Assembly: GCF_000515415.1 (NCBI RefSeq)
Contig: NZ_KI911783.1
Location: 6,187,831-6,251,830, forward strand
Direction of reading: 5' to 3'
DNA length: 64,000 bases
From: Bradyrhizobium sp. WSM1417
GTDB taxonomy: Bacteria; Pseudomonadota; Alphaproteobacteria; Rhizobiales; Xanthobacteraceae
The first letter of the stretch is position 1; each line of letters begins with the position of its first letter. This document shows, in pieces, positions 15,038 to 46,668 of this stretch. A program made the translations under genes and the position numbers. The notes under the pieces were generated by a model. That model had not been told where the DNA came from. It did not search any database and worked only from the letters and a program-made list of their open reading frames with translations.

Positions 15038-15109
15038 GACCTGAGGACGGAGGCTCGCCGGCAGTCCCTATGCCTCGCTCTGTCCGACGACACACGCCTA
15101 CCCACGTCC

Positions 15110-15215: not shown

Positions 15216-15284
15216 CGGCTTCGCCAGCCGCGGTCGCGCTTTCGCTCAGCCCAAAACGATAGTTTCAACTCTTATGTTCGCTTG

Positions 15285-17135: not shown

Positions 17136-17340
17136 CTTCCTCGACCCTGCCTTGTGAAGCGAACCAAATTGTTCCGGCAACCATCCGGGTCCGATGAAGG
17201 TGCTGGCGCGATCACGCTACGGGGCAGCCACAAACTGCTCAGGATGGGTACGATCCGATCGCCAGCGGCCTGCTGCGGATTGCAGTCCGCAGCAGGCCAT
17301 TCCTCACGGAACGGGTCGATGATATTCGATTCCGCTATTA
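17136..17340 (-). ncRNA. Candidate IS110 bridge RNA region
   Basis: Untranslated part of the IS110 element upstream of its transposase, where this family encodes the bridge RNA. A perfect 13-bp stem (17267-17279 with 17286-17298, loop TTGCAG) lies toward the element end and, read on the minus strand, comes first, like the 5' stem-loop of known bridge RNAs. The two internal guide loops were not modelled. Confidence 0.45.
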
Positions 17341-22552: not shown

Positions 22553-22554
22553 GG

Positions 22555-29182: not shown

Positions 29183-30508
29183 TTAGGCAGAGACGATATG
29201 AGTTCCAATCAATCCTCGCTTGCCGCAAGCGTTGCGCGTATCGACCACAAGACGCGCCCACTTGACCAGCGCTGCATAATCGACGTCGTCGTGATCAGTG
29301 GCGATCAGCACCGCATCATATGAATCGATTTCCGGACCGAACGCGATAGATTTCCTGTTGGCCAGGTCTCCGTGTTCTCGCGTCGGAGGAATAATCCGAA
29401 CATGGGGGTCATAGAACTCGACAGTTGCTCCGCGCGCTTCAAGTAACTCGATCAAGACGAGAGATGGGCTCTCCCGGATGTCATCGATATTCTTCTTGTA
29501 AGCCAGCCCCAGCACTAGAATGCGCGAGCCATTTAACCCCTTCCGGAACTCACGATCGAGCGCGATCGCCAGCTCGCTGATAACGTGGCTAGGCATGTTG
29601 GAATTGATTTCGCCGGCCAGTTCGATAAACCGCGTCGCGATTCCGAACTCTCGAGCTTTCCAGGTGAGATAGAAAGGGTCGATCGGGATGCAGTGACCGC
29701 CGAGACCCGGGCCGGGATAGAATGGCATGAAGCCAAACGGCTTGGTCTTGGCCGCTTCGATCACTTCCCAGATGTCGATTCCCATTTTTTTGTATATTAT
29801 CTTCAGCTCATTTACGAGGGCAATATTGACGGCGCGGAAAATGTTCTCGGTAATCTTTACCGCTTCAGCGGTTGCAGCTGACGATACTGGAACTGTCTTC
29901 GCAATGAAGCCGTCGTAAAGGGCGACCGCCAGTTCGCGTGCGAGTAGATCATCGCTCCCAATGACTTTTGGAATCCGAGTGGTGCTGAAATCCGGATTGC
30001 CGGGGTCCTCGCGCTCGGGAGAAAATGCTAGAAAGAAATCGACACCGTTGCGGAGTCCGCTTTTTTCGAGGATGGGCTGCAACACCTCACGAGTTGTCCC
30101 GGGAAACGTTGTCGATTCCAGAACTACCAACTGGCCTGCACGCAAATTCGCGGAAACCACAGCCGCTGTGGACTCTACAAACGACAGATCAGGCTCGAGA
30201 TGCGCCGTCAAAGGAGTCGGAACGCAGATGAGGATGGCGTCGGCTTCGCGTAGGCGGGAAAAGTTTGATGTTGCTTGGAAGCGGCCGCTCTGGTTGGCCA
30301 ACGCTATCTTGCTGGCTTCGATGTGTTTGATATAGCTTTGTCCATTTGCCAGTAGCTCCGGCTTTTCAGGATCAATGTCAAAGCCAATCACGCGCGAACC
30401 AGATTCGGCTATAGCGATGCAGAGCGGAAGGCCGACGTAACCAAGCCCTATAACGCCGACAATGGCCTTCCGGCTGCGAAATCTGCCCACGAGATTATCA
30501 ACTGACAT
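29183..30508 (-). CDS. Nucleotide-sugar 6-dehydrogenase, WbpA-like
   Basis: 441 residues from ATG 30508; frame open to 30547. UDP-glucose/GDP-mannose dehydrogenase superfamily: G-L-G-Y-V-G-L-P near 25-32, S-T-T-F-P-G-T near 120, central E-R-x-D-P-G-N, and catalytic Cys in P-G-L-G-G-H-C-I-P near 265, C-terminal R-x-S-P-S-L. The overall pattern (with F-S-P-E-R) is that of UDP-N-acetylhexosamine dehydrogenases such as WbpA, giving UDP-GlcNAcA with 2 NAD+. With the oxidoreductase, aminotransferase and acetyltransferase at 42.9-46.5 kb it completes a UDP-diacetamido-uronic acid route. Confidence 0.88.
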   Translation of the reverse strand: MSVDNLVGRFRSRKAIVGVIGLGYVGLPLCIAIAESGSRVIGFDIDPEKPELLANGQSYIKHIEASKIALANQSGRFQATSNFSRLREADAILICVPTPLTAHLEPDLSFVESTAAVVSANLRAGQLVVLESTTFPGTTREVLQPILEKSGLRNGVDFFLAFSPEREDPGNPDFSTTRIPKVIGSDDLLARELAVALYDGFIAKTVPVSSAATAEAVKITENIFRAVNIALVNELKIIYKKMGIDIWEVIEAAKTKPFGFMPFYPGPGLGGHCIPIDPFYLTWKAREFGIATRFIELAGEINSNMPSHVISELAIALDREFRKGLNGSRILVLGLAYKKNIDDIRESPSLVLIELLEARGATVEFYDPHVRIIPPTREHGDLANRKSIAFGPEIDSYDAVLIATDHDDVDYAALVKWARLVVDTRNACGKRGLIGTHIVSA

Positions 30509-30589
30509 GTTCAGCTTTCTTTCGTATGTAAGTGCCGCTAGGTACACACTAAGGGCTTGGCCAAGAACATAAATCGTCTGTGGAATAGC

Positions 30590-32014: not shown

Positions 32015-33901
32015 CTATTTGAGGATCGGCTTCCAGAGAATATGAGTTTCATCTTCGTATTCTGTGTGGCTCTCCACTACCTCCGTATAGGCGGACGGAA
32101 AGTTCAGGCCCAGGGCTCTCATGACCGTGTCGGGAATCGACCGATGGCCCTTTGGAGCTGTTAATACCCATGCGCCACTGAGTTGATCGCGCGGCACAGT
32201 TTCAAGCGCCCGTCTCGTGAATTCTTCACTGTTAGGATAACCACCCAACAGCCAAGCGGAGCCGATCGGCAATCCGTCTAAAACGAATATTGTAGTGGGA
32301 GCGGTTCCCGTCAGGTCGATGATCGGTGTCAACCTTTCAAAGCCCGACGCAATCGCTGCCTTTTCAATTCGTTGGAAATAGCTAGCGGAGGCGGGGTCGA
32401 GACAGATCGGGAGACTTGAATGTCTGATAGAAACGCACTCACTTTGCTCCCACAGCGGATGCATCAAACGATAGGGGTGCGATGCCGCGCCGACCAGTGC
32501 CGCAAACGTGGCGAAAACGTATCCCACCCCTATCCATTCGACGAGTCGAGCATACGTAGTCGGAAACAGAGCGATTGCTATTAGGAATGCAGCTCCGATC
32601 CAGAACACCGAAGCAAGCCCGCTCATTAGATCAATCGCGTTTCCGCTTCCAAATCCGAAGGCGATCGGAATCCAACAAAGCAGCAGCGCCGTCCAGCACG
32701 CTGCCGCTCTGGCGTCATCATAGAGGGATCGGCCGATTAAAGCTAGCAGCGAACTGGCCAAAATCACCATCGCTAGAACAGACGATAAGCCCTGCCAGAC
32801 AAGCATCGAAATTAGAAAAAGAACGGTGATGAAAGCGAGATTGGCCTTCGATGTTCGAAGGATGTAGGCCGCCAGAACCGCGATGACCGTAGTCAAAGGT
32901 ATTAGGCGCGCGACCGATCGATTACCCTCGTCAGCAGCAATTGTTACTCCGATGCAGATGGAGACTGCAATGAGAGCAAGCGCGACGAACAGATGGACGA
33001 ATGGCCCCGCTTTGTTCATGCCTCCCAATTGAACGACCACAACAGCAATTGCGGTCGCACCGAGAAAGAAAGCCCAGTCGAAATACGAAAACGTGTACCA
33101 AAACTGATCCTTGACCGAAGGCAAGAACGGAGGCCTCAACAGACTAATTAGGTCAAAACCCAGGCCGTAGCGCGCGATCAAACCTTGGAAAGACCCGCCA
33201 ATCACGTGCGCGATCGCCGCGCTGAAAATGAAGGTCAGGAAGGCCGCCCACATCACCGACACAAAAGCTTCGCGCCGCTTATGAACAGCCAGAAAAACCA
33301 TGGCGAACAGCGCCATTGGGAAGACAGTCGAAGGCCTTGCCATCCAGATCGCAATCGCGCCGAAGCTGGTTAAGGCAGCACTCGACAACATGCGAGGGCT
33401 ATAACTGCGGCCAGCAGCGCCGACGCTAAACAACAAACCGGACGCGAACAACAGGCATCCTGCAAAATTCAGGAGATTGTATCCAGGCGAAGGCAGCCAC
33501 CAGCTGTAAAAAAAAAGCGCGACGATCGACAGAAAAAACAGAGCAGACACCGGCAGATTCGGGCCCTTGGGTAGCAACCTGTACGCATAAGATCCGACGC
33601 CGCAACCGAAAACAAAGCCAGATCCCAAGACCATCACGCCCGCGACTAAGCGCCACGCGACGATGTCGTCTGGAAAAATTAGCGCGAGAGGATGAAAGAA
33701 AAACCCGGTCGCAGTGAGAAAAAAAGTGTATTCCCAGGGATGCTTGGTCCAGTTCAGGTAAAAACCTTCGTCGGTCAGATCAAGCCCCCGCATTAGCAAT
33801 GCTGCAAAGAGGACGAGAGTCAGTGCTGCAAAGATACATCCAGCAATGCGCCACCAGTTCCAGGCCCGCTGTACTTTGATGATATCTGACTTCGAACCCA
33901 C
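32015..33901 (-). CDS. Large polytopic membrane protein, GT-C-like
   Basis: 628 residues from GTG 33901, with AGGGA 6 nt upstream; frame open to 33997. About 12-13 membrane spans in residues 10-500, then a soluble C-terminal periplasmic domain of roughly 125 residues. The first loop has D-L-T-D-E-G-F-Y-L near 37-45, the acidic pair placed as in GT-C mannosyl/arabinosyltransferases that use polyprenyl-phosphate sugars. No standard family name is certain. It might add a side sugar or non-carbohydrate group after flipping. It starts divergently from the methyltransferase gene. Confidence 0.6.
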   Translation of the reverse strand: MGSKSDIIKVQRAWNWWRIAGCIFAALTLVLFAALLMRGLDLTDEGFYLNWTKHPWEYTFFLTATGFFFHPLALIFPDDIVAWRLVAGVMVLGSGFVFGCGVGSYAYRLLPKGPNLPVSALFFLSIVALFFYSWWLPSPGYNLLNFAGCLLFASGLLFSVGAAGRSYSPRMLSSAALTSFGAIAIWMARPSTVFPMALFAMVFLAVHKRREAFVSVMWAAFLTFIFSAAIAHVIGGSFQGLIARYGLGFDLISLLRPPFLPSVKDQFWYTFSYFDWAFFLGATAIAVVVVQLGGMNKAGPFVHLFVALALIAVSICIGVTIAADEGNRSVARLIPLTTVIAVLAAYILRTSKANLAFITVLFLISMLVWQGLSSVLAMVILASSLLALIGRSLYDDARAAACWTALLLCWIPIAFGFGSGNAIDLMSGLASVFWIGAAFLIAIALFPTTYARLVEWIGVGYVFATFAALVGAASHPYRLMHPLWEQSECVSIRHSSLPICLDPASASYFQRIEKAAIASGFERLTPIIDLTGTAPTTIFVLDGLPIGSAWLLGGYPNSEEFTRRALETVPRDQLSGAWVLTAPKGHRSIPDTVMRALGLNFPSAYTEVVESHTEYEDETHILWKPILK

Positions 33902-34069
33902 GCAGCATCCCTGTCGCAATTGGCTCCGCCCCGGCCGGCGACAGCAATCTGGGCTCTGATTAGGCCGGAATGCAACAAATTGCAAAATGTTCCACACGGC
34001 AGGATTTTATGGTATCCGGGGCAACTTACTCCGAACGCATCAGTCGAAGCGACGGCAGCTTACCAAACA

Positions 34070-34990
34070 GTGAAATTGAACGTGTTGCGATTGACAGGTA
34101 CGGCAGACAGCCAACGGAATGCCCGACTAGCAAAGGTGCGTGGAGCACTCTGCTGTCCTGCATGTCGCGCGGATCTCCTCGACTTCCCTTCTTTCCTGCG
34201 CTGCTCTTCATGCTCCGCAGAGTATCCCGTCAGGGACGGAAAAATTTACTTCATCGAGGTTCCCAATGCGACCGACGAACTTGACAGCGTCAAGTACCGG
34301 CTCAAGAAGGCCCTTGGGAAGGCCTACTACTCTGTGGGCATTGCAGTGTTCGCGCCGACGTTTCCGTTCAACTATCGGGCCGCCGTTCTGCGGTTCGTAG
34401 AGCCGGACAAACAGCTCGTCATCGATATCGGAGCCGGCAATCACCGTATAGATCAGCGGATCGTTACTATCGATCTGTTCGATTACGTAGCGACGGACAT
34501 TGTCTGCGATCTGAGCAGCCTGCCGTTCCGGGATGAATCCGTCGACGCTTTCATATCGCGGTCCGTTCTTGAGCACGTCCCCCGACTGACGCAGATTTGC
34601 AAGAATCTTGCGCGAGCGACGCGCAAGAACGGTTTGGCCGCGCACCTGATCCCTTTCATGTTTCCGTTTCACGCATCCCCACATGATTATCAGCGGCTCA
34701 CCCATATCGGCGCCGCCACTCTCTTTCCAGGTTTTGAGCTGCTTGAGCAACGTAACGCAACGGGACCCTTTACCCTACTTACTCTGCTATTGACCGAACT
34801 TTTTGCCGTGATTTTCTCGCTCGGCAACGAGCGCCCAAAGGCTTTTCTTTACCTCACTTTCTGTTTGATCTTTTTTCCAATTAAGTTTCTGGATTTTCCG
34901 TTCGTCGGACGACCGTCCATGCTGGGAATTGCGCCGACAATTTTCACCGTGACACGCAAGACAAGAAGTCAAACGCCATGCCCCCTGTGA
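34070..34990 (+). CDS. SAM methyltransferase with Trm112-like zinc module
   Basis: 306 residues from GTG 34070; start unsure, as the frame is open to 33920 and GTG 34079 and TTG 34082 also fit, none with a good ribosome site. N-terminus has C-C-P-A-C and C-S-S-C (about 28-50), a zinc knuckle seen in Trm112-like domains. Methyltransferase: I-D-I-G-A-G-N near 120 and S-R-S-V-L-E-H-V-P near 162. The C-terminus has two hydrophobic segments ([17 protein letters not shown] and [16 protein letters not shown]), suggesting membrane association. Its end overlaps cysD by 13 bp, tying it to the sulfate genes. Confidence 0.75.
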
Positions 34991-35985
34991 CGACGGTGCG
35001 AGAGCACACTCAAACCGCGGAGACGCCGCTTGAGGATCTGATCTTCAACTATGCGAGACAAGATGCAGATGCACCGCGCGGTCGCAATCTCACTTCGCAC
35101 CTCCGGCGGCTGGAAGCGGAGTCGATCGAGATCATGCGCGAAGTCATTGCCGAAATGGCCAACCCTGTCTTCCTGTATTCCATCGGCAAGGACTCGACGG
35201 TGATGCTTCACCTCGCTCTAAAAGCCTTCTTCCCGGACAAGCCGCCGTTTCCCTTTCTTCATATCGCAACGACCTGGGACTTTCAGGACATGATTACATT
35301 CCGCGATCTAATAGCGATCGCGCTTGGTATCGAACTGAGGGTCCATACCAACGAAGATGGCTTGCGACGCGGCATAAATCCCATCGCTTCCGGTGCAAGC
35401 ACGCATGCGCAGGTCATGTGCACGGAAGGTTTGCGCCAAGCCTTTGACAAGTGGAAGTTCGACGCTGCTTTCGGCGGCGCCCGCCGCGACGAAGAAAAAA
35501 GCCGCGCCAAGGAACGGGTATTTTCGTTCCGCAACACTTCTCATGCGTGGGATCCCCGCAACCAACGTCCCGAACTCTGGAATCTATACAATACGAGACT
35601 TAAGGATGGGGAATCGCTCAGGATTTTTCCCTTGTCAAACTGGACCGAGCTGGATGTCTGGACTTACATCAAGCTGGAAAAAATCCCGGTTGTACCGCTA
35701 TACTTCTCCCGCGTAAGACCCATACTCCATCGCTCGGGCGCTCTCATCATGCGAGACGACGAACGCATGCCCTTAAATTTAGGCGAAACGCCTGACATGA
35801 TGCCCGTTCGATTTCGGACTCTTGGATGCTATCCGCTCACTGGCGCAATGGAATCGCGAGCTGTGAACGTCGACGAGATCATTTTGGAAATGCAGACCTC
35901 GGCGATGTCGGAGCGTCAAGGACGCCTGATCGACTATGATGAGGCAGCATCGATGGAACGGAAGAAGCGAGAGGGGTACTTCTGA
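34978..35985 (+). CDS. cysD: Sulfate adenylyltransferase subunit 2
   Basis: 335 residues from ATG 34978. PAPS-reductase/ATP-sulfurylase small-subunit fold: PP-loop S-I-G-K-D-S-T near 68-74, [12 protein letters not shown] near 163-174, S-N-W-T-E-L-D-V-W near 220, and the conserved C-terminus ending K-R-E-G-Y-F. Makes APS from ATP and sulfate together with CysN. It lies in a run with a methyltransferase (overlap 13 bp) and a CysN-CysC fusion (overlap about 1 bp). There is no cysH, cysI or cysG nearby, so the product goes to sulfation rather than cysteine, as in NodP. Confidence 0.96.
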
Positions 35986-37868
35986 TTACCGGGCCTTCCA
36001 ACGAGACATTCGATCGCGAACCGACGCGCGAAGGCGGACTGCTCCGCCTTCTGACCTGCGGATCGGTCGATGACGGCAAATCGACCCTGATCGGCCGCCT
36101 TCTTCTCGATTCGCAATCGATCTTTCAGGATCAGTTGTCCGCCGTCGAGCGAGACTCGGCCCGCCATGGAACGAATGGAGAGGACGTCGATCTCGCGCTG
36201 CTTCTCGATGGCCTCGAAGCGGAGCGTGAACAGGGCATCACGATCGACGTCGCCTACCGGTTTTTCACGACCCGAAACCGCAGCTTCATTGTCGCGGATA
36301 CGCCGGGGCACGAACAATATACGCGCAATATGGCGACCGGCGCCTCGACCGCCGATCTTGCGATCATTTTGGTCGATGCCCGCAAAGGCCTCCTCACCCA
36401 GACAAAACGGCACAGTTTCATCTGCGCACTGCTCGGCATCCGGCACGTCGTTCTCGCCGTCAACAAGATGGACCTCGTCGGCTATTCGCAAGAGGCATTC
36501 GACCGGATCGTCGAAGCCTATCGTACGTTCGCCCAGCCCCTGGAGTTTCGCTCGGTCGCGGCGATTCCGATATCCGGCCGTTTCGGCGTGAATGTCGTCA
36601 GCCGTTCGCCGTTGACCCGATGGTATGAAGGTCCCACCCTCGTGGACCATCTTGAACATGTCGATGTCTCCGCGCATGCCGACGTCCAGCCGTTCCGGTT
36701 TCCGGTCCAGCTTGTAAGCCGCCCGCATTCGGATTTCCGCGGCTATGCCGGCACCGTGGCGAGCGGATCGGTGAGCCGTGGCGACGACGTCGTCGTGGCG
36801 AGATCGGGACGCAAAACCGTCGTCTCAAAGATCGTCACGTTCGACGGCGAACGTGAGCAGGCCAAGGCAGGCGACTCGGTCACGCTCGTGCTTGGCGACG
36901 AAATCGATATCGCGCGCGGGGACGTTTTGGTCGACCCTCAGAACAGGCCAGCAGTCGCTGATCAATTCGCGTGCAAGCTGATCTGGATGGATGACAATCC
37001 GATGCTGCCGGGACGATCCTATCTCCTGAAATCCGGCACCCAAAAGATTCCGGCGCGGATCACGACGCTGAAGCATCAGGTCGACGTCAACACGCTCGAC
37101 CAGAGGGCCGCCCGGACGTTGAGCCTCAACGAAATCGGAATCTGCAATATCGCGACATCGGCGCCGCTGGTCTTTGATCCCTACGCGGACAACCGGCGCA
37201 CGGGATCATTCATCCTGATCGACCGGTTCACCAACACCACGGCCGGCGCCGGCATGATATCTTTTCCGCTTCGCCGCGCCACCAACATTCACCATCATGA
37301 TCACCTGATCAGCAAGACGCAACATGCGGCGCTGAAACAGCAAAAACCCACCATCCTTTGGTTCACGGGATTGTCGGGTTCCGGCAAATCCACGATCGCC
37401 AATCAGCTCGAGAAGACGCTTCACGATCGCGGCTATCACACGTTCCTTCTCGACGGCGACAACATCCGTCACGGCCTCAACCGCGACCTCGGGTTCACCG
37501 ACGCCGACCGCGTTGAAAACATCCGACGCGTCGGAGAGGTCGCCAAGCTTCTGCTGAACGCCGGGCTGATCGTCATTTGCTGCTTCATTTCACCGTTCCG
37601 GGCCGAGCGGGACAGCTTGCGCGAGTTGGTCGGCGCAGACGAATTCCTTGAGATATTCGTCGATACGCCGCTCGAGGAATGCATCCGGCGCGACCCGAAA
37701 GGGCTCTACGCGGCGGCCCTTGCCGGCAAGATCAAGAACTTTACGGGTGTCGATTCGCCCTACGAACCTCCGGAAAAGCCGGACATTCACATCAGGGATA
37801 CTGAGGAAGCGACCGATGCCGCCTCTCGCGTCGCAGCATGGCTGCTCCCCCGGATCAAGAGCGTCTAG
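35985..37868 (+). CDS. cysNC: Bifunctional sulfate adenylyltransferase subunit 1 / APS kinase
   Basis: About 627 residues. GTPase part: G1 G-S-V-D-D-G-K-S-T near 26-34, G3 D-T-P-G-H near 105, G4 N-K-M-D near 160; beta-barrels to about 440. APS kinase part: G-L-S-G-S-G-K-S-T near 462-470, then D-G-D-N-I-R-H and R-D-P-K-G-L-Y. Makes PAPS (NodQ/CysNC type). The frame has no ATG, GTG or TTG before TTG 36135, which is after the G1 loop. Translation must start at a rare codon: ATT 35985, overlapping the cysD stop and 8 nt after GAGAGGGG, or CTG 35982. The 5' limit is therefore approximate. Confidence 0.93.
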   Translation: MTGPSNETFDREPTREGGLLRLLTCGSVDDGKSTLIGRLLLDSQSIFQDQLSAVERDSARHGTNGEDVDLALLLDGLEAEREQGITIDVAYRFFTTRNRSFIVADTPGHEQYTRNMATGASTADLAIILVDARKGLLTQTKRHSFICALLGIRHVVLAVNKMDLVGYSQEAFDRIVEAYRTFAQPLEFRSVAAIPISGRFGVNVVSRSPLTRWYEGPTLVDHLEHVDVSAHADVQPFRFPVQLVSRPHSDFRGYAGTVASGSVSRGDDVVVARSGRKTVVSKIVTFDGEREQAKAGDSVTLVLGDEIDIARGDVLVDPQNRPAVADQFACKLIWMDDNPMLPGRSYLLKSGTQKIPARITTLKHQVDVNTLDQRAARTLSLNEIGICNIATSAPLVFDPYADNRRTGSFILIDRFTNTTAGAGMISFPLRRATNIHHHDHLISKTQHAALKQQKPTILWFTGLSGSGKSTIANQLEKTLHDRGYHTFLLDGDNIRHGLNRDLGFTDADRVENIRRVGEVAKLLLNAGLIVICCFISPFRAERDSLRELVGADEFLEIFVDTPLEECIRRDPKGLYAAALAGKIKNFTGVDSPYEPPEKPDIHIRDTEEATDAASRVAAWLLPRIKSV

Positions 37869-37966
37869 TCCACAACTATGCCCTTCCGGCCATGGACTTG
37901 GTCCGGGATGAAAGTTAAGCAGAGGTTCATTCCAGAGGCCAGCAGGCACATTCCGTACGGTTCGAG

Positions 37967-38947
37967 ATGACCAGCGAGAGACCACGTCCAGCGCGGCTGA
38001 CCTTGATTACTCCGGTATTCAATGAATCGCCGAATATCGAAGCGTGCGCCGAGGCGGTCAACCGGGTGATCTTCGCCGATCGCGACATCGACGGCCGCGT
38101 GATTTTCGTCGACGATGGATCATCCGACGACAGTTGGGCCAGGATCGAAGCGCTGGCCCGGACATCACCTCGTTTTTCCGGGGTTCGACTGTCGCGGAAT
38201 TTCGGCGCCCATTACGCACTGACGGCTGGCTTCGATCATGTCGAGCCGGATCAGGACATTGTGGCCACGCTGGCTTGCGACCTGCAGGATTCCCCCGAAA
38301 CAGTTCTCGATTTCATCCGGGAGTGGCGCAACGGCGCCGACATCGTCTGGGGCGCACGCCGCGAACGGGCCGATAGCTGGCCGCGCAAAACCGCGTCGCA
38401 TATCCTGAACTACGTGCTAAAGCGCTATGCGATGCCGAAGAACTCGAGGTTCAGAACCGGCAGCTTCCTCCTGTTGGATCGCACCGCGTTCGACTGCTTT
38501 CTGCTATATCGTGAACATAACCGCGTCACGTTCGCGCTCGTCGCCTGGACGGGTTTCAATCAGGCGACAGTTCCTTACGATCGGAAAGCGCGCGTCCACG
38601 GCACCACGCGATGGTCGTTCGGTCAGATGCTGAACACGGCCTACGACGTCTTTATCGGCTTCTCGCCAGTTCCTGCGAAGTTCGTTGCGATGCTCGGCTT
38701 CAGCGTCTTCACTGGCAGCATACTGTTCCTGCTCTATCTCTTGATAAGCTGGTCGATCACCGACGTGGAACCCGGCTGGACCGGAATCATGACCATGATG
38801 ACCGTGCTGTTCGGATTGCTGTTCATGATGGTCGGCATGCTTGCCGAATATCTCTATCGCATCTTCATCGAGACAAAGAAGCGCCCGCTCTATTTCGTTT
38901 CGAAGCGAACCAAGCCGTCACCGATAAGGCCGGCAGGCGATGTCTGA
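37967..38947 (+). CDS. Glycosyltransferase family 2, DPM1/ArnC/GtrB type
   Basis: 326 residues from ATG 37967. GT-A domain: T-L-I-T-P-V-F-N-E near 12-20, V-D-D-G-S-S-D-D-S near 47-55, L-A-C-D-L-Q-D near 103-109 (metal-binding), H-G-T-T-R-W-S near 210. Two C-terminal spans (about 235-300), then a basic tail. Such enzymes load a sugar onto undecaprenyl phosphate for use by GT-C enzymes in the periplasm. This pairs naturally with the GT-C-like protein at 32015-33901. The next gene overlaps by 8 bp. Confidence 0.88.
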   Translation: MTSERPRPARLTLITPVFNESPNIEACAEAVNRVIFADRDIDGRVIFVDDGSSDDSWARIEALARTSPRFSGVRLSRNFGAHYALTAGFDHVEPDQDIVATLACDLQDSPETVLDFIREWRNGADIVWGARRERADSWPRKTASHILNYVLKRYAMPKNSRFRTGSFLLLDRTAFDCFLLYREHNRVTFALVAWTGFNQATVPYDRKARVHGTTRWSFGQMLNTAYDVFIGFSPVPAKFVAMLGFSVFTGSILFLLYLLISWSITDVEPGWTGIMTMMTVLFGLLFMMVGMLAEYLYRIFIETKKRPLYFVSKRTKPSPIRPAGDV

Positions 38948-40061
38948 GACCTCGCTGACCAAGGTACGGCTAAGCGGCCAGGACCTACCGGCGGCGGCGT
39001 CCTGGGCCGACGGGCTCGATATCATGTTGCCGGCCCAGATGGCCGCGCTGATCGGCCATGGCCACGTCGACTGGAGCGACTTCACCGTGCAGGCGCAAGC
39101 GCAGGCCAGCGCGGTGCACCTCCGGGAACGTAATGCCTACCTGTCGAGGCCGCCGGCATCGGCACGGCTGCCGGTGAACTATCGAACTATTCCGGGGCCA
39201 CTCCGCCGCGCCATCGGGCGCGGCATCGGACGGATGCAGCGCTATCGGCAATCCCGGTGGGCCAGTTTCCCGGGCTGGCCGGTGGACCTTTCGGCGGATG
39301 CCGCGGCAGATCTCGGTGGCGTGCCGTTTCCAAGGCCGGCGCGAACGCCGGTTCTGCTCACCCACGACATCGATAGCGCGGAAGGACTGACCAATCTGGT
39401 CAAATGGTTCCTGCCGATCGAAGAAGCCAGCGGCGCACACTCGGCTAACTATATCGTGCCCTGCGCCTGGCCGATCGACAGACGCCTAACCTCGGAGATT
39501 GACAGTCGCGGTCATGAAATCGGCATTCATGGCTACGATCATTCGAACCGGACGCCCTTCGCGCCTGCGGCAGAACGGCACGCGCGCCTCGCAGCCGGTG
39601 CACAGGTCGGAGCTGAATTCAAAACAGCCGGGTATCGCGCCCCATCGCTGGTGCGCACGAAGGTCATGATCGAGGAGCTTGCGTCGCACTATCGCTATGA
39701 CAGCAGCATTCCGACGTCCGGCGGGCTGTTTCCGGTTCCCAACAACGGGTGCGCCAGCGCCCGTCCCTGGAAGATCGGCACTATGTGGGAGCTTCCGCTC
39801 TCGATGCCGCGCGACGGCAGCTTGCAATTCCTTGGCTATAGCCCTGCCCGGATCCTGTCGACATGGATCAGAGCCGCTCACCTGATCGCCAGCAGCGGCG
39901 GCATCGTATGCCTCCTGACGCACTGCGAGCGCGGCTTTTCCGGAAATTCGCCGATGCTCAAGATCTATCGGGACTTCATCGAGACAGTCGCGGCCGATGA
40001 CAGCTTCGAATTCCTGCGGCCGATCGATCTCGTCGAACGCCTGGATCGGCAATCCGCGTGA
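38940..40061 (+). CDS. Polysaccharide deacetylase (CE4/NodB-like)
   Basis: 373 residues from ATG 38940. After a 135-residue unfamiliar N-terminal region, the deacetylase domain has L-T-H-D-I-D near 139-144 (metal-binding Asp) and I-H-G-Y-D-H-S near 195-201 (two metal-binding His), G-Y-R-A-P-S near 225, and L-L-T-H-C-E-R near 320. No signal peptide, so it may act in the cytosol on a lipid-linked or nucleotide-bound amino sugar, removing N-acetyl. It overlaps its neighbours on both sides (8 and 4 bp), which implies coupled translation. Confidence 0.85.
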   Translation: MSETSLTKVRLSGQDLPAAASWADGLDIMLPAQMAALIGHGHVDWSDFTVQAQAQASAVHLRERNAYLSRPPASARLPVNYRTIPGPLRRAIGRGIGRMQRYRQSRWASFPGWPVDLSADAAADLGGVPFPRPARTPVLLTHDIDSAEGLTNLVKWFLPIEEASGAHSANYIVPCAWPIDRRLTSEIDSRGHEIGIHGYDHSNRTPFAPAAERHARLAAGAQVGAEFKTAGYRAPSLVRTKVMIEELASHYRYDSSIPTSGGLFPVPNNGCASARPWKIGTMWELPLSMPRDGSLQFLGYSPARILSTWIRAAHLIASSGGIVCLLTHCERGFSGNSPMLKIYRDFIETVAADDSFEFLRPIDLVERLDRQSA

Positions 40062-40798
40062 CCGGCGAAGCGGGCCGACCGTTTGAAAAGGCGGCCTTCT
40101 CCGGGCGCAAGGATAGCATTCGCCTGTTCCTCGATGCCGCGCTTGCGCGCATGCCTGAGAGCGACGCGCTTCGCGTTCTGGATCTCGGGTGCGGGGCCGG
40201 CGATCTCCTTCTCGCGGTTCGCCGATACAGACCCCGCGCATCCCTGACCGGCATCGATATCTCGCCTCTCAACATCCAGGCCGCTGTTGCGCGCGCCAAA
40301 GCCGACCCCTACGGCCTTGAGAGTGTAACATTCGAGGCTGCTGATTATTTACGAGCTCAGTTCGAAACGTTCGGCGTCATCCTGGCGGAAAGTGTGCTCC
40401 ACCTCATCGCCGATGATCATGATGGGCTTGCCGCCAAGCTTGCGGCGGATCTGGCTCCGGGCGGCCTCCTTATCGCAACAATGCCGCAGGATAATTTGAC
40501 GAACCGGATACTGATCGGTCAGCGACGTCTGTGGCGGGCGATGCCGCCGGCCGCCGACTCCCTTGCCGTCAAAATCGCTCGGACAATCCATCCGACTGAG
40601 CCCGCGCATATCATCGCGGAACGCGTTCGTTATCTGCGGATCATCCCTGAACGTCTGCACGGACCGCAATGGATTAGGCAAATGCAAATGGCAGGCCTCG
40701 ATCTGGTGGAAGATTCAAACTGGCCGCGGGCAACAATCCTCAAGCCAATCCATCGCCTGCTGGTTTTCAAGCGACAGATGTCGGCAGGTGAAAACTAA
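40058..40798 (+). CDS. Class I SAM-dependent methyltransferase
   Basis: 246 residues; GTG start at 40058 overlapping the deacetylase stop. Motif I V-L-D-L-G-C-G-A-G-D near 39-48, T-G-I-D-I-S near 66, motif II E-S-V-L-H-L-I near 110. Methyltransf_25/12-like. It is the last gene of the + run and ends 38 bp from the convergent aminotransferase gene. It is the fourth methyltransferase in the locus. Confidence 0.83.
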   Translation: MTGEAGRPFEKAAFSGRKDSIRLFLDAALARMPESDALRVLDLGCGAGDLLLAVRRYRPRASLTGIDISPLNIQAAVARAKADPYGLESVTFEAADYLRAQFETFGVILAESVLHLIADDHDGLAAKLAADLAPGGLLIATMPQDNLTNRILIGQRRLWRAMPPAADSLAVKIARTIHPTEPAHIIAERVRYLRIIPERLHGPQWIRQMQMAGLDLVEDSNWPRATILKPIHRLLVFKRQMSAGEN

Positions 40799-40835
40799 AC
40801 CGTCGGCACCGAACACACGCGCCGCGATCGCGACC

Positions 40836-41978
40836 TCAATCCGCGAAAAACGAGAGGACTTCGAGAACCCGTTCCACGTCCGCATTCGTCATGCCGGGGA
40901 AAATCGGCAACTGCAGCGACGACGAAGCCACGGCTTCTGTATGCGGCAGCTTGGCATTCATATGACGATAGGGTTCTTCAAGGTGCGAGGCCATTACACC
41001 ACGACGCGTCGCCACGCCATGCCGATAGAAGTGCTCCATTAGCGCATTTCTCGTCGATAACTGGCCGTCGCGCACCCTGACCTGGAACGATTGCCAGTTG
41101 GGCGTGACATGCTGCGGTACGGTCGGCGCGACGACGACCGCGTGATTCTTCAAACCATCGAGGTACGCCTGTGCAATCGCACGGCGGCGCGCAAGAAAGG
41201 CATCGAGTTTCCCGATCTGCGCGACTCCGACCGCAGCCTGAATGTCCGTAATGCGAAAATTATAGCCGATCTCCGGATAGGATTCGAACGTGGTCGGCGA
41301 ACTCGCATGCCGCTGATAATCGCTGAGCGACATCCCCTGATGGCGCAAGCGGCGCAATTTCGCCGAGAGCTCGCCATCTTTGGTGACAATCATGCCACCC
41401 TCGCCAGTCGTAATTACTTTTCGGGCATGAAGGCTGAAAACCGAATGCGGCGCCTGCGAGCCGACCGGTGCCCCGCGGAATTTGCTCCCGAACGAACAGG
41501 CGGCGTCCTGAATAAGGATAAGGTTGTTGGCCGCCGCGAGCGCCTGGAAGCGGTCGATATCGCAAGGCAAACCTACCTGATCGACCGGCAGAATGGCATG
41601 CGTCTTTGGCGTGATCTTCCGCTCAGCGTCATCCGGATCGATATTGAATGTCACCGGATCAATATCCGCGAAAACGGGCGTGGCGCCCGCGTGCACGATG
41701 ACGTTGACGGAGGCGATAAACGTCAGAGAAGGTACGATGACCTCATCGCCTGGACCGACTCCCAGCGCCTTCAGCAACAGAAATGCTCCTGTCGTCCACG
41801 ACGAAACCCCGACAGCAGCTTCGGCGCCGCAGGCTTCGGCAAACCGGTTCTCGAACTCGGCCAGCCTGGGTCCGCCAACCACCCATCGGCTACGGATCGC
41901 CTGCGCCGCAGCCTCTTCTTCCTCGAGGCCGAAGCAAGGCTGGCTGAATGCAACGTCAGGAGACGACGACATCGACAT
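40836..41978 (-). CDS. DegT/DnrJ-family sugar aminotransferase (second of three)
   Basis: 380 residues from ATG 41978; ATG 41972 is better spaced from GGAAGG. PLP type I: G-V-S-S-W-T-T-G-A near 58, V-P-S-L-T-F near 82, I-Q-D-A-A-C-S-F-G near 155, F-S-L-H-A-R-K-V-I-T-T-G-E-G-G near 180-194 (PLP lysine), Y-N-F-R-I-T-D near 240. PseC/ArnB/SpsC-like overall. It overlaps the epimerase gene by 23 bp at the 3' end of the six-gene minus run. Amino donor glutamate; keto-sugar substrate unknown. Confidence 0.9.
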   Translation of the reverse strand: MSMSSSPDVAFSQPCFGLEEEEAAAQAIRSRWVVGGPRLAEFENRFAEACGAEAAVGVSSWTTGAFLLLKALGVGPGDEVIVPSLTFIASVNVIVHAGATPVFADIDPVTFNIDPDDAERKITPKTHAILPVDQVGLPCDIDRFQALAAANNLILIQDAACSFGSKFRGAPVGSQAPHSVFSLHARKVITTGEGGMIVTKDGELSAKLRRLRHQGMSLSDYQRHASSPTTFESYPEIGYNFRITDIQAAVGVAQIGKLDAFLARRRAIAQAYLDGLKNHAVVVAPTVPQHVTPNWQSFQVRVRDGQLSTRNALMEHFYRHGVATRRGVMASHLEEPYRHMNAKLPHTEAVASSSLQLPIFPGMTNADVERVLEVLSFFAD

Positions 41979-42975
41979 CGCCTTCCATCACCCAGTTTTC
42001 GATCTTTTCTTCCAACAGATCCTTCGGATCGATCGTTCCGCGAACCCAATCGATGTAATCGCGCACCCCCTCGCGAAGCTCGATTTCGGCACGATAGCCG
42101 AGCAAGGTCTTTGCCTTTACGGTGTCGGCGTGCAGATAAGCTACATCGCCCGGGCGGTCGCCACGATATTCGATCGTTAGATCATTTCGCGAGAGAGCCG
42201 TCAGGACTTCCCGGGCTAGGTCACTCACCGTGACCGGCATCCCGCGGGCGATGTTGACGCGGTGGCCGATGACGGCATCCGTTTCGCCAGCAAGCCTGAT
42301 CCCACGGGCGATTTCGGTCACATAGGTAAAGTCGCGCGCGTTGGTGCCATCGCCGAATACAACCGGGCGAAGCCCGTTCAGAACTCGTCCGACGAAGCGC
42401 GGCAATACCTCGGCACGAACCCCAGTCTGGTACGCCCGGGGGCCATATGCATTGAAGGGCCGCACAACGGTCGTAGGCAGCCCGTAGGTTCTCAGGTAAG
42501 CTTCGGTGTACAACTCGCCCGCCAGCTTCGACGCGCCGTAAGCCGTCATCGGGCAGCAGACTGTGAGGTCTTCGTGCAGCTCCGCGCGTGACGCATTGCC
42601 ATACACCTCCGAGCTGGAGCAATACACGAAGCGACCGATGCGGCGGCGTCGCGCTTCCTCCAAAAGGGTGATCGTTCCGGTCGCATTCACATCGTGAGAT
42701 TCCATTGGGCGCGTGAGAGACCGGCGCACACATTGAGTCGCAAGATGATAGACTATCTCGCAGTTCTCGAACGCATCCGCCACCGCCCGGGGATCTGTCA
42801 CCGACCCGCTCAGGATGCGAACGTCACCATTTCCGTTCGCCTCAACGAGGTTGCTTTCAGAGCCGACAGAGAAATCGTCCAGAACGGTTACTGGTCTTCC
42901 CTGTTCGATAAGCTGATCGACCAGGTGACTACCAATGAATCCGGCGCCGCCGGTTACGAGAATTCGCGCCGTCAT
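41956..42975 (-). CDS. NAD-dependent sugar epimerase/dehydratase (GalE/RmlB-like SDR)
   Basis: 339 residues from ATG 42975, overlapping the upstream oxidoreductase by 4 bp. Extended SDR: T-G-G-A-G-F-I-G-S-H near 8-17, H-L-A-T-Q near 77, catalytic Ser-x-Tyr-Lys set S-S-S-E-V-Y-G and Y-G-A-S-K near 144-148. It acts on a UDP- or GDP-linked sugar, most likely as a C4 epimerase (UDP-glucose or UDP-GlcNAc type). Its place between oxidoreductase and aminotransferase suggests it shapes an amino sugar of the repeat unit. Confidence 0.9.
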   Translation of the reverse strand: MTARILVTGGAGFIGSHLVDQLIEQGRPVTVLDDFSVGSESNLVEANGNGDVRILSGSVTDPRAVADAFENCEIVYHLATQCVRRSLTRPMESHDVNATGTITLLEEARRRRIGRFVYCSSSEVYGNASRAELHEDLTVCCPMTAYGASKLAGELYTEAYLRTYGLPTTVVRPFNAYGPRAYQTGVRAEVLPRFVGRVLNGLRPVVFGDGTNARDFTYVTEIARGIRLAGETDAVIGHRVNIARGMPVTVSDLAREVLTALSRNDLTIEYRGDRPGDVAYLHADTVKAKTLLGYRAEIELREGVRDYIDWVRGTIDPKDLLEEKIENWVMEGDVDVVVS

Positions 42976-43997
42976 CGCGGCTCTTCCCGCTGCGACCGCA
43001 CGCGCTTCAAATTGCTGTCCAGGCGCGCCTGGGCCAATTCCAGGGTCCGCACGATCTTCAATCCTTCGCTCCCATCCATGATGGAGGATGCCTTGCCCTT
43101 AATGACGTCGGCAAAGTGCTGGGTGACGCCAACGAGCGCCTCCATCTTCCGCAGCCGCGGTGAATGGATATCGCCGATCCGGTATTGCGGAATGATCATC
43201 GAGCGCTGCTCTTCAGGCTGAAAATGGATGCCGGAACTGTAGATCTTGATCTTCTGGTCTTCGTCAAGATCGTCCCACACGAGCATCTTGTCGGTTCCGC
43301 CAATCGTGAAGCGGCGGATCTTGACCGGGGACATCCAGCTCAGATTCAGATGCGCAATGCAGTTCTTCCGGAAATGCAATGTGAGATACGCCATATCCGG
43401 CGCATCCTGATTCACGTGGCAATAGCCCGAGGCCTCGACGTCAATCAGTTCGTCATCGATTAGATGATTAATGATCGAAAGATCGTGCGGCGCCAGATCC
43501 CAGAGGCAGTTCACGTCCGGCTGGAACAGACCGAGGTTCACGCGCAACGAATCGAAGTAGCAGACTTTACCGAGCGCTGAACGCGCAACCAGTTCCTTGA
43601 TCATCTGGACTGCGCCGGTGAACAGAAACGTGTGGTCGACCATCAGAACGAGAGAATTCCGCTTGGCCCGCTCGACGAGATCGCGAGCCTCATCCGACGT
43701 TGCACACATCGGCTTCTCAACCAGCACATGTTTTCCAGCATCGAGCGCACGGCGCGCGATGTCGTAGTGACTTGCGACAGGAGTCGCTATGACCACTGCA
43801 TCAACCTCAGGAAGGGCGATGAGCGTTTCAGGGTCGTGGAATGTGCGGATATCGGGAGATGAGGCCGAGATGCGATCGCGGGTCTCGAGCTTTTTATCGG
43901 CAACTCCGATGACGCGGCAATCCGTATTGCTGCGAAAATTTCGAAGCAGGTTTGGTCCCCAGTAGCCATAGCCCACCAATCCAATTCCGATAGTCAT
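42972..43997 (-). CDS. Gfo/Idh/MocA oxidoreductase, WbpB-like
   Basis: 341 residues from ATG 43997 (GTG 44012 possible). N-terminal NAD-binding G-Y-G-Y-W-G near 9-14, E-K-P-M-C near 91-95 (catalytic Lys), L-W-D-L-A-P-H-D-L near 167-175 (catalytic His). WbpB-type enzymes oxidise C3 of UDP-GlcNAcA, giving the keto sugar for transamination. The aminotransferase and acetyltransferase that would follow are two and three genes upstream in the same operon. Narrow substrate is inferred from context. Confidence 0.88.
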   Translation of the reverse strand: MTIGIGLVGYGYWGPNLLRNFRSNTDCRVIGVADKKLETRDRISASSPDIRTFHDPETLIALPEVDAVVIATPVASHYDIARRALDAGKHVLVEKPMCATSDEARDLVERAKRNSLVLMVDHTFLFTGAVQMIKELVARSALGKVCYFDSLRVNLGLFQPDVNCLWDLAPHDLSIINHLIDDELIDVEASGYCHVNQDAPDMAYLTLHFRKNCIAHLNLSWMSPVKIRRFTIGGTDKMLVWDDLDEDQKIKIYSSGIHFQPEEQRSMIIPQYRIGDIHSPRLRKMEALVGVTQHFADVIKGKASSIMDGSEGLKIVRTLELAQARLDSNLKRVRSQREEPR

Positions 43998-44103
43998 TGT
44001 GCCGCCATCCACCTCAGCGCGCGATGCGCAGATCCCGCATATATATCAGACAAACTGTTCGCTACGGGCCTGCCGGCGGCCACAGGGCTGTCAGGTTAGC
44101 TAG

Positions 44104-44862
44104 CTAAACTCCCCAACCGGAGACATCAACGCCGGTCAGATCGTGAAAATCCCGGATTTCAGGAGCGAAATGCTCACGAAGCCGCTCCGCGGTTCGGGGA
44201 TCGATGGGCTTATCGGCTTCCGTCGCGTTGACGCGACCTGTCTGCAGAACGGACCACGGCAGTTGTTCCAACCCTGCAAATGCCTGGATACCAGCAACGA
44301 AGCGCTCCGGACTGCTGAGGATATCTTCAAAAATGAAAAACCCGATGCGCTCGCGGCCCAAGGCGTCGATCCAGGCTCTCGCAAAGCTCCCATATCGCCC
44401 GCGCGTGGTGTAGTCGAACGGCCGTGCGGCTTCCCTTCCTGGTGGCAGCGGACTGGGCCGCTTGCCCTCGAGATTCAATGCTTCCTCGAAGTCCAGCGTC
44501 TCAAGACCATTCTTTCGCGACCAGAGCCAGTTGGAATAAGCACGATCGACGGGATTACGCAGCAAGATGATCAGCTTGGTTTTTGGCAACAATCGCGCGA
44601 ACCGCACCCGCGCATCTTCATTCTCAAAATAGTTGGTGGTCTTCTCGATCTTCACCGAGTTCGGCGCGGAATTGGCGAAATAGTTATCGTACCTTTTTAG
44701 AATCCCGGCATCGCCATCCAGATGCCCCGTCAGCAGAACTTTCGGCTCCGGGGCGATCGGCTTCGCCAGATGCACCCGGGGATGCTTGTCGAGGACTTCG
44801 CACAGGAACGTCGTGCCCGAACGCGGCGCTCCGCCAATGACGACGTCGGGCAAAATCGGCAT
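44104..44862 (-). CDS. PAPS-dependent sulfotransferase
   Basis: 252 residues from ATG 44862. 5'-phosphosulfate loop G-A-P-R-S-G-T-T-F near 11-19, 3'-phosphate motif R-N-P-V-D-R-A-Y-S-N-W near 102-112, and an F-I-F-E-D-I segment near 175, the layout of heparan-sulfate/NodH-like sulfotransferases. No signal peptide, so it acts in the cytosol, probably on a lipid-linked glycan or nucleotide sugar. It sits between WbpE- and WbpB-like genes, and PAPS-forming cysD/cysNC lie 8 kb away in the same locus. The acceptor hydroxyl or amine is unknown. Confidence 0.9.
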   Translation of the reverse strand: MPILPDVVIGGAPRSGTTFLCEVLDKHPRVHLAKPIAPEPKVLLTGHLDGDAGILKRYDNYFANSAPNSVKIEKTTNYFENEDARVRFARLLPKTKLIILLRNPVDRAYSNWLWSRKNGLETLDFEEALNLEGKRPSPLPPGREAARPFDYTTRGRYGSFARAWIDALGRERIGFFIFEDILSSPERFVAGIQAFAGLEQLPWSVLQTGRVNATEADKPIDPRTAERLREHFAPEIRDFHDLTGVDVSGWGV

Positions 44863-44904: not shown

Positions 44905-46002
44905 TCAACGATAGAACGTCGCGACGGTCTTGACGACGTAATCAAGCTGCTCATCCGTCATTCCGACAAACAACGGCAACGAAAGACCTTCGTCTGCCCA
45001 CCTGTCGGACACGGGATAGGCTGTACCGGGTTTCACATAGGCCGACATAGCGGGCTGTCGGTGCAATGGCACCGGATAATGCAGGCCCGTCTCGATCCCG
45101 GATTTCGACAGCGCGTCACGGAGCAAATTTCGCGACGGCGTGCGCACGACGAAAAGATGCCAGCAGTGCGTCTGATGCCGAACAGACGGGATTTCGAGCG
45201 GGAGCCCCTCAAGCTTTGCAATATACTGATTGGCGAGTTCGGTCCGCCGCTTCGTCCAGGCGGACAACAGCGGCAGCTTGTGCGTCAGAACGACGGCTTG
45301 CAGCCCGTCCATCCGATAGTTGAACCCGAGTTCCGCATGTACATATCGATCGGTCTGCGCATGATTGCGCAAGGAGCGTAAGCGGCCCGCGTATCTATCA
45401 TCTGAGGTCACGATCAATCCGGCTTCGCCCGCGGCCCCGAGATTCTTGCCCGGATAGAAGCTGATGCAACCCAATTCCCCCAGCGAGCCAGTCGAACGCC
45501 CGTTCCAGGTTGCTCCGATCGACTGCGCGGCGTCTTCGATCACCTTCAGGTCGTAGTCAAGGGCGAAGCTGAGAACCGCATCCATGTTCGCCGGCTGACC
45601 GTATAGATGGACAGGAACAACGGCGCGCGTCCGCGGAGTTACAAGTCGACGGGCGACCTCGACGTCGATTGTTCCGGTCTCGTCATCGACATCGCAGAAG
45701 ACGGGGATTGCGCCAATGTACAGGATACCCCAGGCGCTGCCGATAAACGTGTGAGCAGGCAGCAGGACCTCATCGCCGCTCCTTACGCCGGCGGAGAGAA
45801 GCGCGAGATGAAGCGCCGACGTTCCGGAATTGACGCCGATCGCGTGCGGAACCCCCAGCCATTCCGCGATCTGACGCTCGAAGGCTTCGACGAACGGGCC
45901 CGACGAGAACTGGCTGCTGGCAAACACCCGGTCAAAATCAGACCTGACGCCCTCTTCGATATGACGCCACTGCCATGTCAAATCGTTGAAAGGTACTTTC
46001 AC
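44905..46002 (-). CDS. DegT/DnrJ-family aminotransferase, WbpE-like (third of three)
   Basis: 365 residues from GTG 46002. PLP type I: F-N-D-L-T near 5, G-V-N-S-G-T-S-A-L near 55, L-P-A-H-T-F-I-G near 81, V-I-E-D-A-A-Q-S-I-G near 153, F-Y-P-G-K-N-L-G-A near 180 (PLP lysine). The P-F-x-D-L start and P-G-K-N-L-G-A are typical for WbpE/WlbC and QdtB/FdtB enzymes that aminate C3. The acetyltransferase gene ends 16 bp upstream and belongs to the same operon, so UDP-3-keto-GlcNAcA is the likely substrate. Confidence 0.9.
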   Translation of the reverse strand: MKVPFNDLTWQWRHIEEGVRSDFDRVFASSQFSSGPFVEAFERQIAEWLGVPHAIGVNSGTSALHLALLSAGVRSGDEVLLPAHTFIGSAWGILYIGAIPVFCDVDDETGTIDVEVARRLVTPRTRAVVPVHLYGQPANMDAVLSFALDYDLKVIEDAAQSIGATWNGRSTGSLGELGCISFYPGKNLGAAGEAGLIVTSDDRYAGRLRSLRNHAQTDRYVHAELGFNYRMDGLQAVVLTHKLPLLSAWTKRRTELANQYIAKLEGLPLEIPSVRHQTHCWHLFVVRTPSRNLLRDALSKSGIETGLHYPVPLHRQPAMSAYVKPGTAYPVSDRWADEGLSLPLFVGMTDEQLDYVVKTVATFYR

Positions 46003-46018: not shown

Positions 46019-46501
46019 CTAGCGTATATTGCGCTTATCGCGGATATCGCCGATCACCCGCGCAGGGTTTCCAGCCACGATGGCGAATGGCGGGACATCA
46101 TTCGTCACGACGGAGCCGGCGCCGATCAATGAAGAGGCCCCGATTCTGACAGGCAGGATGACAGCCCCGCTGCCGATTGACGCGCGGAGCTCCACCGAGG
46201 TGCGTGACATCACCCACTCGTCCGTTATTCGCCGCCCGCACTCGTCTGTAGCACGGGGCAGAAGATCATTGGTGAACACAACGCCATGACCGACGAAAAC
46301 CTCATGCCCGATGTCGACGCCTTCACAAACGAAAGAATGAGACTGAATCTTGCAGAGACGGCCGATCACCGCCCCCGCTTGAATTTCGACGAAGGGACCA
46401 ATGAACGTGTCGTCTCCTATGCAACATCCATAGAGATTTACTAGATCTGGTAAAGGAATCCGCGTCCTTTCTCCCAGTTGAACATTGGCAGCAATGGGCA
46501 A
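46019..46501 (-). CDS. Hexapeptide-repeat sugar N-acetyltransferase, WbpD-like
   Basis: 160 residues from TTG 46501, chosen because AAGGAG lies 7 nt upstream (46509-46514); a TTG at 46534 is less likely. Left-handed beta-helix of I-G-x-x-x-x-I-G hexads: L-G-E-R-T-R-I, I-G-D-D-T-F-I-G, I-G-R-L-C-K-I, I-G-H-E-V-F-V-G-H-G-V near 74 (catalytic His region), I-G-S-G-A-V-I, ending V-A-G-N-P-A-R-V. It uses acetyl-CoA on a 3-amino sugar nucleotide (WbpD/WlbB). First gene of the six-gene minus-strand operon. Confidence 0.9.
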   Translation of the reverse strand: MPIAANVQLGERTRIPLPDLVNLYGCCIGDDTFIGPFVEIQAGAVIGRLCKIQSHSFVCEGVDIGHEVFVGHGVVFTNDLLPRATDECGRRITDEWVMSRTSVELRASIGSGAVILPVRIGASSLIGAGSVVTNDVPPFAIVAGNPARVIGDIRDKRNIR

Positions 46502-46668
46502 GCGACCGCTCCTTCTTCGGCCTTCAAATGCCAAGTTCGCTAAGCCCGGTCAACCAAATACAACTGTCGCGTTCAGATATCCGTCGGGCTTGATCGGTAA
46601 GTTCTCTTTTCGTTCCAGTTGCAATAGTCCTAAGATTGTGAGGTTCTGAACTTAAATTGGGCAAGTCG

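Follow-up and report, generated by a model that had tools for sequence, protein, structure and literature searches.

A gene module of Bradyrhizobium sp. WSM1417 probably directs the assembly of a sulfated, lipid-carrier-linked amino sugar for use in a surface glycan. It lies in a stretch of 64,000 nucleotides, here called the window (positions 6187831-6251830 of the 8.05-Mb single-contig genome), and combines a second set of genes for synthesis of 3'-phosphoadenosine 5'-phosphosulfate (PAPS) with a GT2 glycosyltransferase, a deacetylase and a heparan-type sulfotransferase. Sequence and fold establish which enzyme families are encoded, that a second PAPS set is present and that the genes are co-inherited. 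A forward run encodes, in order, a methyltransferase, CysD, CysNC, the GT2, the deacetylase and another methyltransferase, in the places and on the strand given by an earlier sequence-only reading of this DNA. Converging on it is a reverse run for an acetyltransferase, a DegT aminotransferase, the sulfotransferase, a Gfo/Idh oxidoreductase, a short-chain dehydrogenase/reductase (SDR) and a second DegT protein. The forward genes overlap or abut, apart from a 98-bp gap 5' of the GT2 gene (cysNC counted from 35985). The surface-polysaccharide setting claimed by that reading was likewise supported: the surrounding locus (18.6-48.4 kb of the window) encodes a dehydratase of the Polysacc_synt_2 family, an initiating sugar transferase, a transketolase split in two, methyltransferases, a DegT protein, Wzy-like proteins, a nucleotide-sugar dehydrogenase and a GT4 protein.

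Enzymes of the module

The gene cysD (34978..35985, forward strand; ATP sulfurylase small subunit) is a second genomic copy, matching NF009214 with 490.9 bits (cut-off, 413), and cysNC (35985..37868, forward strand; a fusion of the large subunit and adenosine 5'-phosphosulfate [APS] kinase) matches NF004035 with 914.7 bits (cut-off, 715). In the whole genome we found three PF01507 matches, namely, the window cysD, another cysD and cysH at 1.76 Mb, and two APS kinases, the second of them also at 1.76 Mb. The locus at 1.76 Mb encodes CysD, CysNC, CysH, CysG, a sulfate-binding protein and a NirA/sulfite-reductase-like protein (the last below cut-offs), and its CysNC shares only 37% identity with that of the window. 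Given this separate assimilatory set, we rejected the idea that the window genes are assimilatory copies. Since that set stands elsewhere in the genome, the PAPS supply of the window is, judged by gene content, a dedicated one, as had been proposed. The accompanying claim that cysH, cysI and cysG are absent from the window holds for cysH; cysI and cysG were not searched separately.

The open reading frame list began cysNC at TTG 36135, which would cut off the GTPase P-loop. The frame is open 5' of this codon, where it encodes RLLTCGSVDDGKSTLIGRLL, and a truncated cysNC was thus rejected. No ATG, GTG or TTG occurs in frame 5' of the P-loop (window 35940-36135, forward strand), and therefore the start must be a non-standard codon, either CTG 35982 or ATT 35985 behind GAGAGGGG, or CTG 36039 or 36051. 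Automatic annotation may truncate cysNC at TTG 36135 and so lose the P-loop.

The sulfotransferase (44104..44862, reverse strand; PF13469/PF00685) was the sole PF13469 and sole PF00685 protein found in the genome (Stf0, Sulfotransfer_2 and other families were not searched). Its modeled structure has the fold common to the NST and 3-OST domains of heparan sulfate synthesis, which ranked above other sulfotransferases. Residues P13, R14, G16, T17, E73 and K74, covering the PAPS loop and a Glu that we presume to be catalytic, were invariant in 21/21 rows and could be aligned to NDST1 and 3-OST-3. In the ExxxNYF motif, the N, common to NDST1, was not invariant among the sulfotransferase rows. A close relative comes from Nitrobacter (87% identity).

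The deacetylase (38940..40061, forward strand) is of the CE4/NodB-like type and has no transmembrane segment by hydropathy (a simple script was used for all such predictions). Its PF01522 score of 17.5 bits lies below the curated cut-off of 23.1. The NodB-homology fold is present in its model, for which CE4-type entries and ArnD were the best fold matches and an NDST1 chain stood at Foldseek rank 30. D143, H197, H201, R233 and H328 were found in 43/43 rows and D145 in 42/43; we take an Asp-His-His metal site and catalytic Asp, Arg and His roles to follow the familiar CE4 motifs. A close relative from Bradyrhizobium is 89% identical.

The GT2 protein (37967..38947, forward strand; PF00535) is of the GtrB/ArnC undecaprenyl-phosphate glycosyltransferase type. 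It matched sll0501 (PDB 5eke), which we take to be GtrB, with an E value of 3e-46 over residues 10-312 of 326, and ArnC (9hwj) with 3e-38 over residues 10-318, and it has two C-terminal hydrophobic segments, at 251 and 283. Its NCBIfam matches, PgfS at 170 bits and ArnC at 132.8 bits (cut-off, 529), were both under cut-off, which leaves it outside the ArnC equivalog. Because the GT2 resembles undecaprenyl-phosphate transferases, we favor a lipid-linked decoration sugar over a plain backbone residue of the O-antigen or capsule suggested by the sequence-only reading.

Co-inheritance of the module genes

High-scoring relatives of the sulfotransferase, deacetylase and GT2 all occurred in the same 2 of the 265 genomes in our genus set, WSM1417 itself and a close relative, G100. 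The sulfotransferase scored 462 bits in its own genome and 345 bits in G100, with 21-114 bits in 36 further genomes. The deacetylase exceeded 500 bits in both (G243, 107 bits), as did the GT2 (next, 289 bits), of which some relative was present in 263/265. In the class (385 genomes) and order (347 genomes) sets, the deacetylase was found in its own genome only (E values up to 1e-15), and sulfotransferase paralogues of 75-132 bits were seen in 25 other genomes of the class set. These absences are not absolute, because few first-look candidates were scored per genome (e.g., 5 of 53 found).

We then compared ten related loci, comprising nine from a scan of named genomes (sulfotransferase identity, 37-58%) and that of G100 (47%). 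The hosts of the nine belong to Rhodospirillales, Filomicrobium, Rokubacteria (two), Acidobacteria (three), Desulfobacula and Eremiobacterota. A deacetylase was encoded in 8/10 loci (the copy in L009 is cut by the contig end), the GT2 in 9/10 (all except L008) and a relative of the second methyltransferase in 6/10. Amino-sugar enzymes were likewise seen in six (L008, L009, L010, L011, L014 and L047), and L015 has a DegT fragment at the edge of the stretch. APS kinase was present in four, without CysN in L012, L013 and L016 and as CysNC in L047; it is adjacent in all three Acidobacteria loci. As a control, we searched 26 paralogue loci in 25 genomes (stretches of 4.7-18 kb) with the window proteins at a threshold of 1e-8. 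The sulfotransferase itself appeared in 23 of them; relatives of the deacetylase, the window-type GT2, the window-type methyltransferase and DegT appeared in 0/26, of APS kinase in 1/26 and of the SDR in 6/26. The co-occurrence in related genomes that the sequence-only reading had named as a check on its proposal was thus observed, with the deacetylase in 8/10 related loci versus 0/26 paralogue loci.

A similar association was seen in the protein database: among 50 sulfotransferase contigs that were 5 kb or longer, 14 matched a deacetylase contig exactly in length, compared to a mean of 0.125 and a maximum of 2 in a shifted control. This comparison took in the 120 of 1220 sulfotransferase matches and 120 of 980 deacetylase matches that were listed, one sulfotransferase row being without contig. 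The deacetylase contig of P0241 (1493, below 5 kb) was outside it and equals no sulfotransferase contig size. Mirror-tree correlations over nine loci gave r values of 0.52, 0.62 and 0.76, reached by 5, 3 and 5 of 2000 label shuffles, respectively, with shared phylogeny not removed.

Within the genus, cysD-cysNC lay in the same 20-kb stretch as the sulfotransferase gene in G100, G103 and G133, the sulfotransferases of the latter two being 25-26% identical to that of the window. No cysD-cysNC was seen in 19.9 kb around the G199 sulfotransferase gene, and the G247 stretch is a 5.6-kb contig. Linkage was therefore found in 4/6 genus genomes with a sulfotransferase match of at least 60 bits, our strain included. 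A plasmid DNA search returned 18 records, with matches at cysD/cysNC only; plasmid searches with the deacetylase gave one weak match, and those with the sulfotransferase gave 210 records, all below 60% identity (best 20 of 210, 28-30%).

Proposed pathway and its alternatives

The reverse run encodes a Gfo/Idh/MocA oxidoreductase (42972..44012; PF01408; NF040723, 145 bits, below cut-off), an SDR of the nucleotide-sugar dehydratase/epimerase/decarboxylase family (41956..42975; PF01370, with PDB matches), two DegT aminotransferases (PF01041) and a hexapeptide-repeat acetyltransferase (46019..46534; PF00132; NeuD/PglB/VioB-type, 78 bits, below cut-off), all on the reverse strand. The first DegT protein (40836..41978) resembles perosamine synthetase (E value, 1e-72) and ArnB (1e-69) and would aminate C4; the second (44905..46002) is QdtB/WbpE-like (best PDB match 7b0d, 5e-93; QdtB, 6e-81; WbpE, 4e-69) and would aminate C3, the Gfo/Idh/MocA protein presumably acting as a sugar 3-dehydrogenase. 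Together these predicted activities fit a route to a multi-amino sugar. The sulfotransferase gene thus does lie among amino-sugar genes, as had been stated; the description of these as amino-uronic-acid genes was not supported. A triamino-arabinose-type sugar is one candidate product. A diacetamido sugar is dealt with in the relevant part of PMC8040287.

In the pathway that we propose, CysD and CysNC would convert ATP and sulfate to PAPS locally, while the reverse run would supply an acetylated amino-sugar nucleotide. Like ArnC, which handles a formylated sugar, the GT2 would charge undecaprenyl phosphate with one N-acetylated sugar; the CE4-like deacetylase, in the manner of ArnD following ArnC, would next free the amine at the cytosolic face. 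Sulfate from PAPS would then be placed on the lipid-linked sugar by the heparan-type sulfotransferase, most likely on the freed amine, or else on a hydroxyl. A methyltransferase would methylate the sugar, and the finished sugar would be flipped and joined to lipopolysaccharide or another surface glycan. What we infer is the sequence of the reactions, the identity of carrier and acceptor, and the placement of the sulfate on nitrogen.

N-sulfation would be the most economical use of the pair, given that the deacetylase uncovers an amine and is inherited together with a sulfotransferase of the heparan type. We tentatively suggest that the two might form a split NDST, in which a sugar linked to the lipid carrier is N-deacetylated and N-sulfated before export; this arrangement would span several groups at phylum level and would often come with a dedicated source of PAPS. 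The N-sulfated sugar raised by the sequence-only reading gains weight from the joint travel of both genes in distant bacteria; fold, profile score and motif did not discriminate between N- and O-sulfation.

Several observations weigh against this pathway or parts of it. The O-sulfating 3-OST and N-sulfating NST structures fit the sulfotransferase model equally well (Z within 1), and the profile score is higher for 3-OST-3. L008 (an entire 7.9-kb contig) encodes neither deacetylase nor GT2, and L015 (10.9 kb seen) has the GT2 and no deacetylase. The deacetylases of L010 and L011 are only 29-30% identical to that of the window, compared to 47-48% for the sulfotransferases, and may belong to a different subfamily. 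G243 carries a 27% identical deacetylase relative together with hexapeptide transferase, DegT and Gfo/Idh relatives (L110, 8783-14400); no sulfotransferase relative was seen in this 18-kb stretch, and deacetylase relatives can thus act without sulfation. A methyltransferase could act on the amine instead. The locus also encodes Wzy-like proteins and a sugar-phosphate transferase, and an oligosaccharide on undecaprenyl diphosphate could therefore serve as acceptor. Finally, the transferase of the last step is at best a candidate. A 660-amino-acid protein with 12 transmembrane segments (32015..33997, reverse strand; longest open reading frame, hydropathy) is possibly a GT-C transferase; its Pfam matches were at chance level only (E values up to 5), and no relative was seen in the ten related loci. 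It has 14 relatives, those in Bradyrhizobium being 68-72% identical (72% in Bradyrhizobium ottawaense), and three listed relatives are on contigs of the same sizes (191544, 3594853 and 19195) as contigs in the sulfotransferase or deacetylase lists.

O-sulfation and N-sulfation are of roughly equal likelihood. It is quite possible, if short of probable, that the same module places sulfate on a hydroxyl, as 3-OSTs do, the freed amine staying free or being methylated or otherwise acylated. However, a pure O-sulfation pathway needs no deacetylase, and yet the deacetylase accompanies the sulfotransferase about as consistently as the GT2 does (8 versus 9 of 10 loci). Action of the sulfotransferase on a residue of a Wzx/Wzy-built O-antigen or capsule repeat, with the GT2 and deacetylase forming a separate decoration pathway, appears unlikely to us. 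Such a division would agree with the sugar-phosphate transferase and Wzy-like genes and with the position of the sulfotransferase gene within the amino-sugar operon, apart from those for GT2 and deacetylase; L008, L009 and L047 likewise have it in an amino-sugar operon. In the Acidobacteria loci L012, L013 and L016, however, sulfotransferase, GT2 and deacetylase are encoded in a single run, in stretches in which no amino-sugar enzyme relatives were seen.

We consider it highly unlikely that the genes are relics, or redundant sulfate-assimilation genes, without a sulfated product: cysNC lacks a standard start codon, but no frame is interrupted, residues of catalytic type are conserved and the gene set recurs in distant groups. 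Least probable of all is a role of PAPS and sulfotransferase in sulfating Nod factor or another small metabolite, since, although nodA is present in the genome and no second PF13469/PF00685 sulfotransferase was found, the sole NodA match (2387386, i.e., 2.39 Mb) is 3.8 Mb away, relatives accompany GT2 and deacetylase in Acidobacteria, Rokubacteria and Desulfobacula, and the only NCBIfam match of the sulfotransferase, to NoeE, reaches 19.2 bits against a cut-off of 500. The proposed separation from Nod-factor sulfation thus stood; the claim that nodABC lie outside the window was verified for nodA, and nodB and nodC were not searched.

Known systems and neighboring genes

In rhizobia, PAPS made by CysD/CysNC-type proteins feeds carbohydrate sulfotransferases, as in the NodH/NodPQ and LpsS systems. 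The window genes differ in being unlinked to nodA and in the NST/3-OST fold of the sulfotransferase. NodH is also treated in part of PMC11625862. Compared to the single-polypeptide NDST, the window encodes a separate deacetylase (38940-40061, forward strand) and sulfotransferase (44104-44862, reverse strand), both without transmembrane segments. NDST1 has adjacent D319/D320, as given in the part of PMC10864358 concerned, whereas the window deacetylase has a D-x-D arrangement (D143, D145). In the Arn pathway (ArnB-ArnC-ArnD-ArnT), as outlined in the pertinent section of PMC12748117, an amino sugar is loaded on undecaprenyl phosphate only in masked form and is unmasked afterwards; the ArnB-like DegT protein, ArnC-like GT2 and ArnD-like fold of the window resemble it. 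Unlike that pathway, the module is expected to use an acetyl rather than a formyl mask and includes an additional sulfotransferase, methyltransferase and PAPS synthesis; moreover, no ArnT was identified, and the GT2 is under the NCBIfam ArnC cut-off.

Additional PAPS genes plus a sulfotransferase in a polysaccharide locus, which are described as a hallmark of sulfated-polysaccharide synthesis in the portion of PMC11641403 at hand, are what we found in the window. In Vibrio sp. KMM 8419, second cysC/N/D copies occur with sulfotransferase genes and the sulfated capsule structure has been solved; N-sulfation is not mentioned in the main text (PMC11641403). For Pontiella exopolymers, 75-80% N-sulfation was determined by nitrous acid, and a PF13469 sulfotransferase gene lies in a GT2/GT4 cluster with aminotransferase and methyltransferase genes; there, the N-sulfated product is known chemically, and the relevant sections give no gene-to-product link, PAPS is not mentioned, and it is stated that prokaryotic sulfotransferases active on glycosaminoglycans are not known (PMC7356697). 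The Actinoplanes exopolysaccharide cluster wps-1 is similar in its predicted heparan-sulfate-type sulfotransferase WpsH and methyltransferase, studied together with the APS-kinase-family gene AMIS_7390, but its sulfated product is putative and the deacetylase belongs to another cluster, wps-3, according to the part of PMC13390465 concerned.

Among the matches listed from the open-licence literature, a module of an undecaprenyl-phosphate-type GT2, a CE4-like deacetylase, a heparan-type sulfotransferase and PAPS genes was undescribed. N-sulfated sugars are a hallmark of animal heparan sulfate, and if the split arrangement is true, heparin-type N-sulfation would gain a bacterial counterpart working on undecaprenyl phosphate. 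The module genes are candidates for those behind N-sulfated bacterial sugars, which have been reported chemically and not genetically, and the conserved deacetylase, sulfotransferase and PAPS genes offer a small cloneable set for testing bacterial N-sulfation. If working, they would provide a bacterial enzyme pair for heparin-type chemistry; active NDST expression in bacteria is called a key bottleneck in the corresponding part of PMC13353177. For a nodA-carrying strain, a probable sulfated surface sugar would be encoded far from nodA.

Both methyltransferases of the forward run are encoded at its ends. The first (33920..34990, longest open reading frame; Methyltransf_11, 38.2 bits) has a 47% identical relative adjoining the sulfotransferase in the Acidobacteria locus L012, and the gene for the second, an S-adenosylmethionine methyltransferase (40058..40798; Methyltransf_31, 55.1 bits), overlaps the deacetylase gene by 4 bp. 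A nucleotide-sugar 6-dehydrogenase outside the conserved core (29183..30547, reverse strand; TIGR03026, 413 bits) is a possible source of uronic acid; in the ten related loci, we saw no relative of this enzyme. Near the related sulfotransferase operons in L008 (6574-7620) and L009 (6383-7324), we observed an LPG_synthase_TM (PF03706) membrane protein, possibly a carrier-lipid flippase. The G103 locus (L051, 1973-17403) has relatives of the backbone genes (dehydrogenase, GT4, Wzy, DegT, cysD and cysNC) together with a distinct sulfotransferase (26% identity), and neither the deacetylase nor the window-type GT2 was seen in it, as though one sulfation cassette had replaced another.

Inside the polysaccharide locus, the transketolase is split into C-terminal and N-terminal parts encoded by adjacent genes (window 21635-23406, reverse strand), as would suit a sugar that is branched or otherwise unusual. 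Genes for phage-type recombination (YqaJ, ERF), along with transposase/integrase fragments (IS110, rve), lie immediately upstream of the locus (9639-18205) and suggest a mobile border. Adjoining the locus, an 805-amino-acid protein (49237-51654, reverse strand) carries an M10 serralysin C-terminal domain with RTX and FG-GAP repeats.

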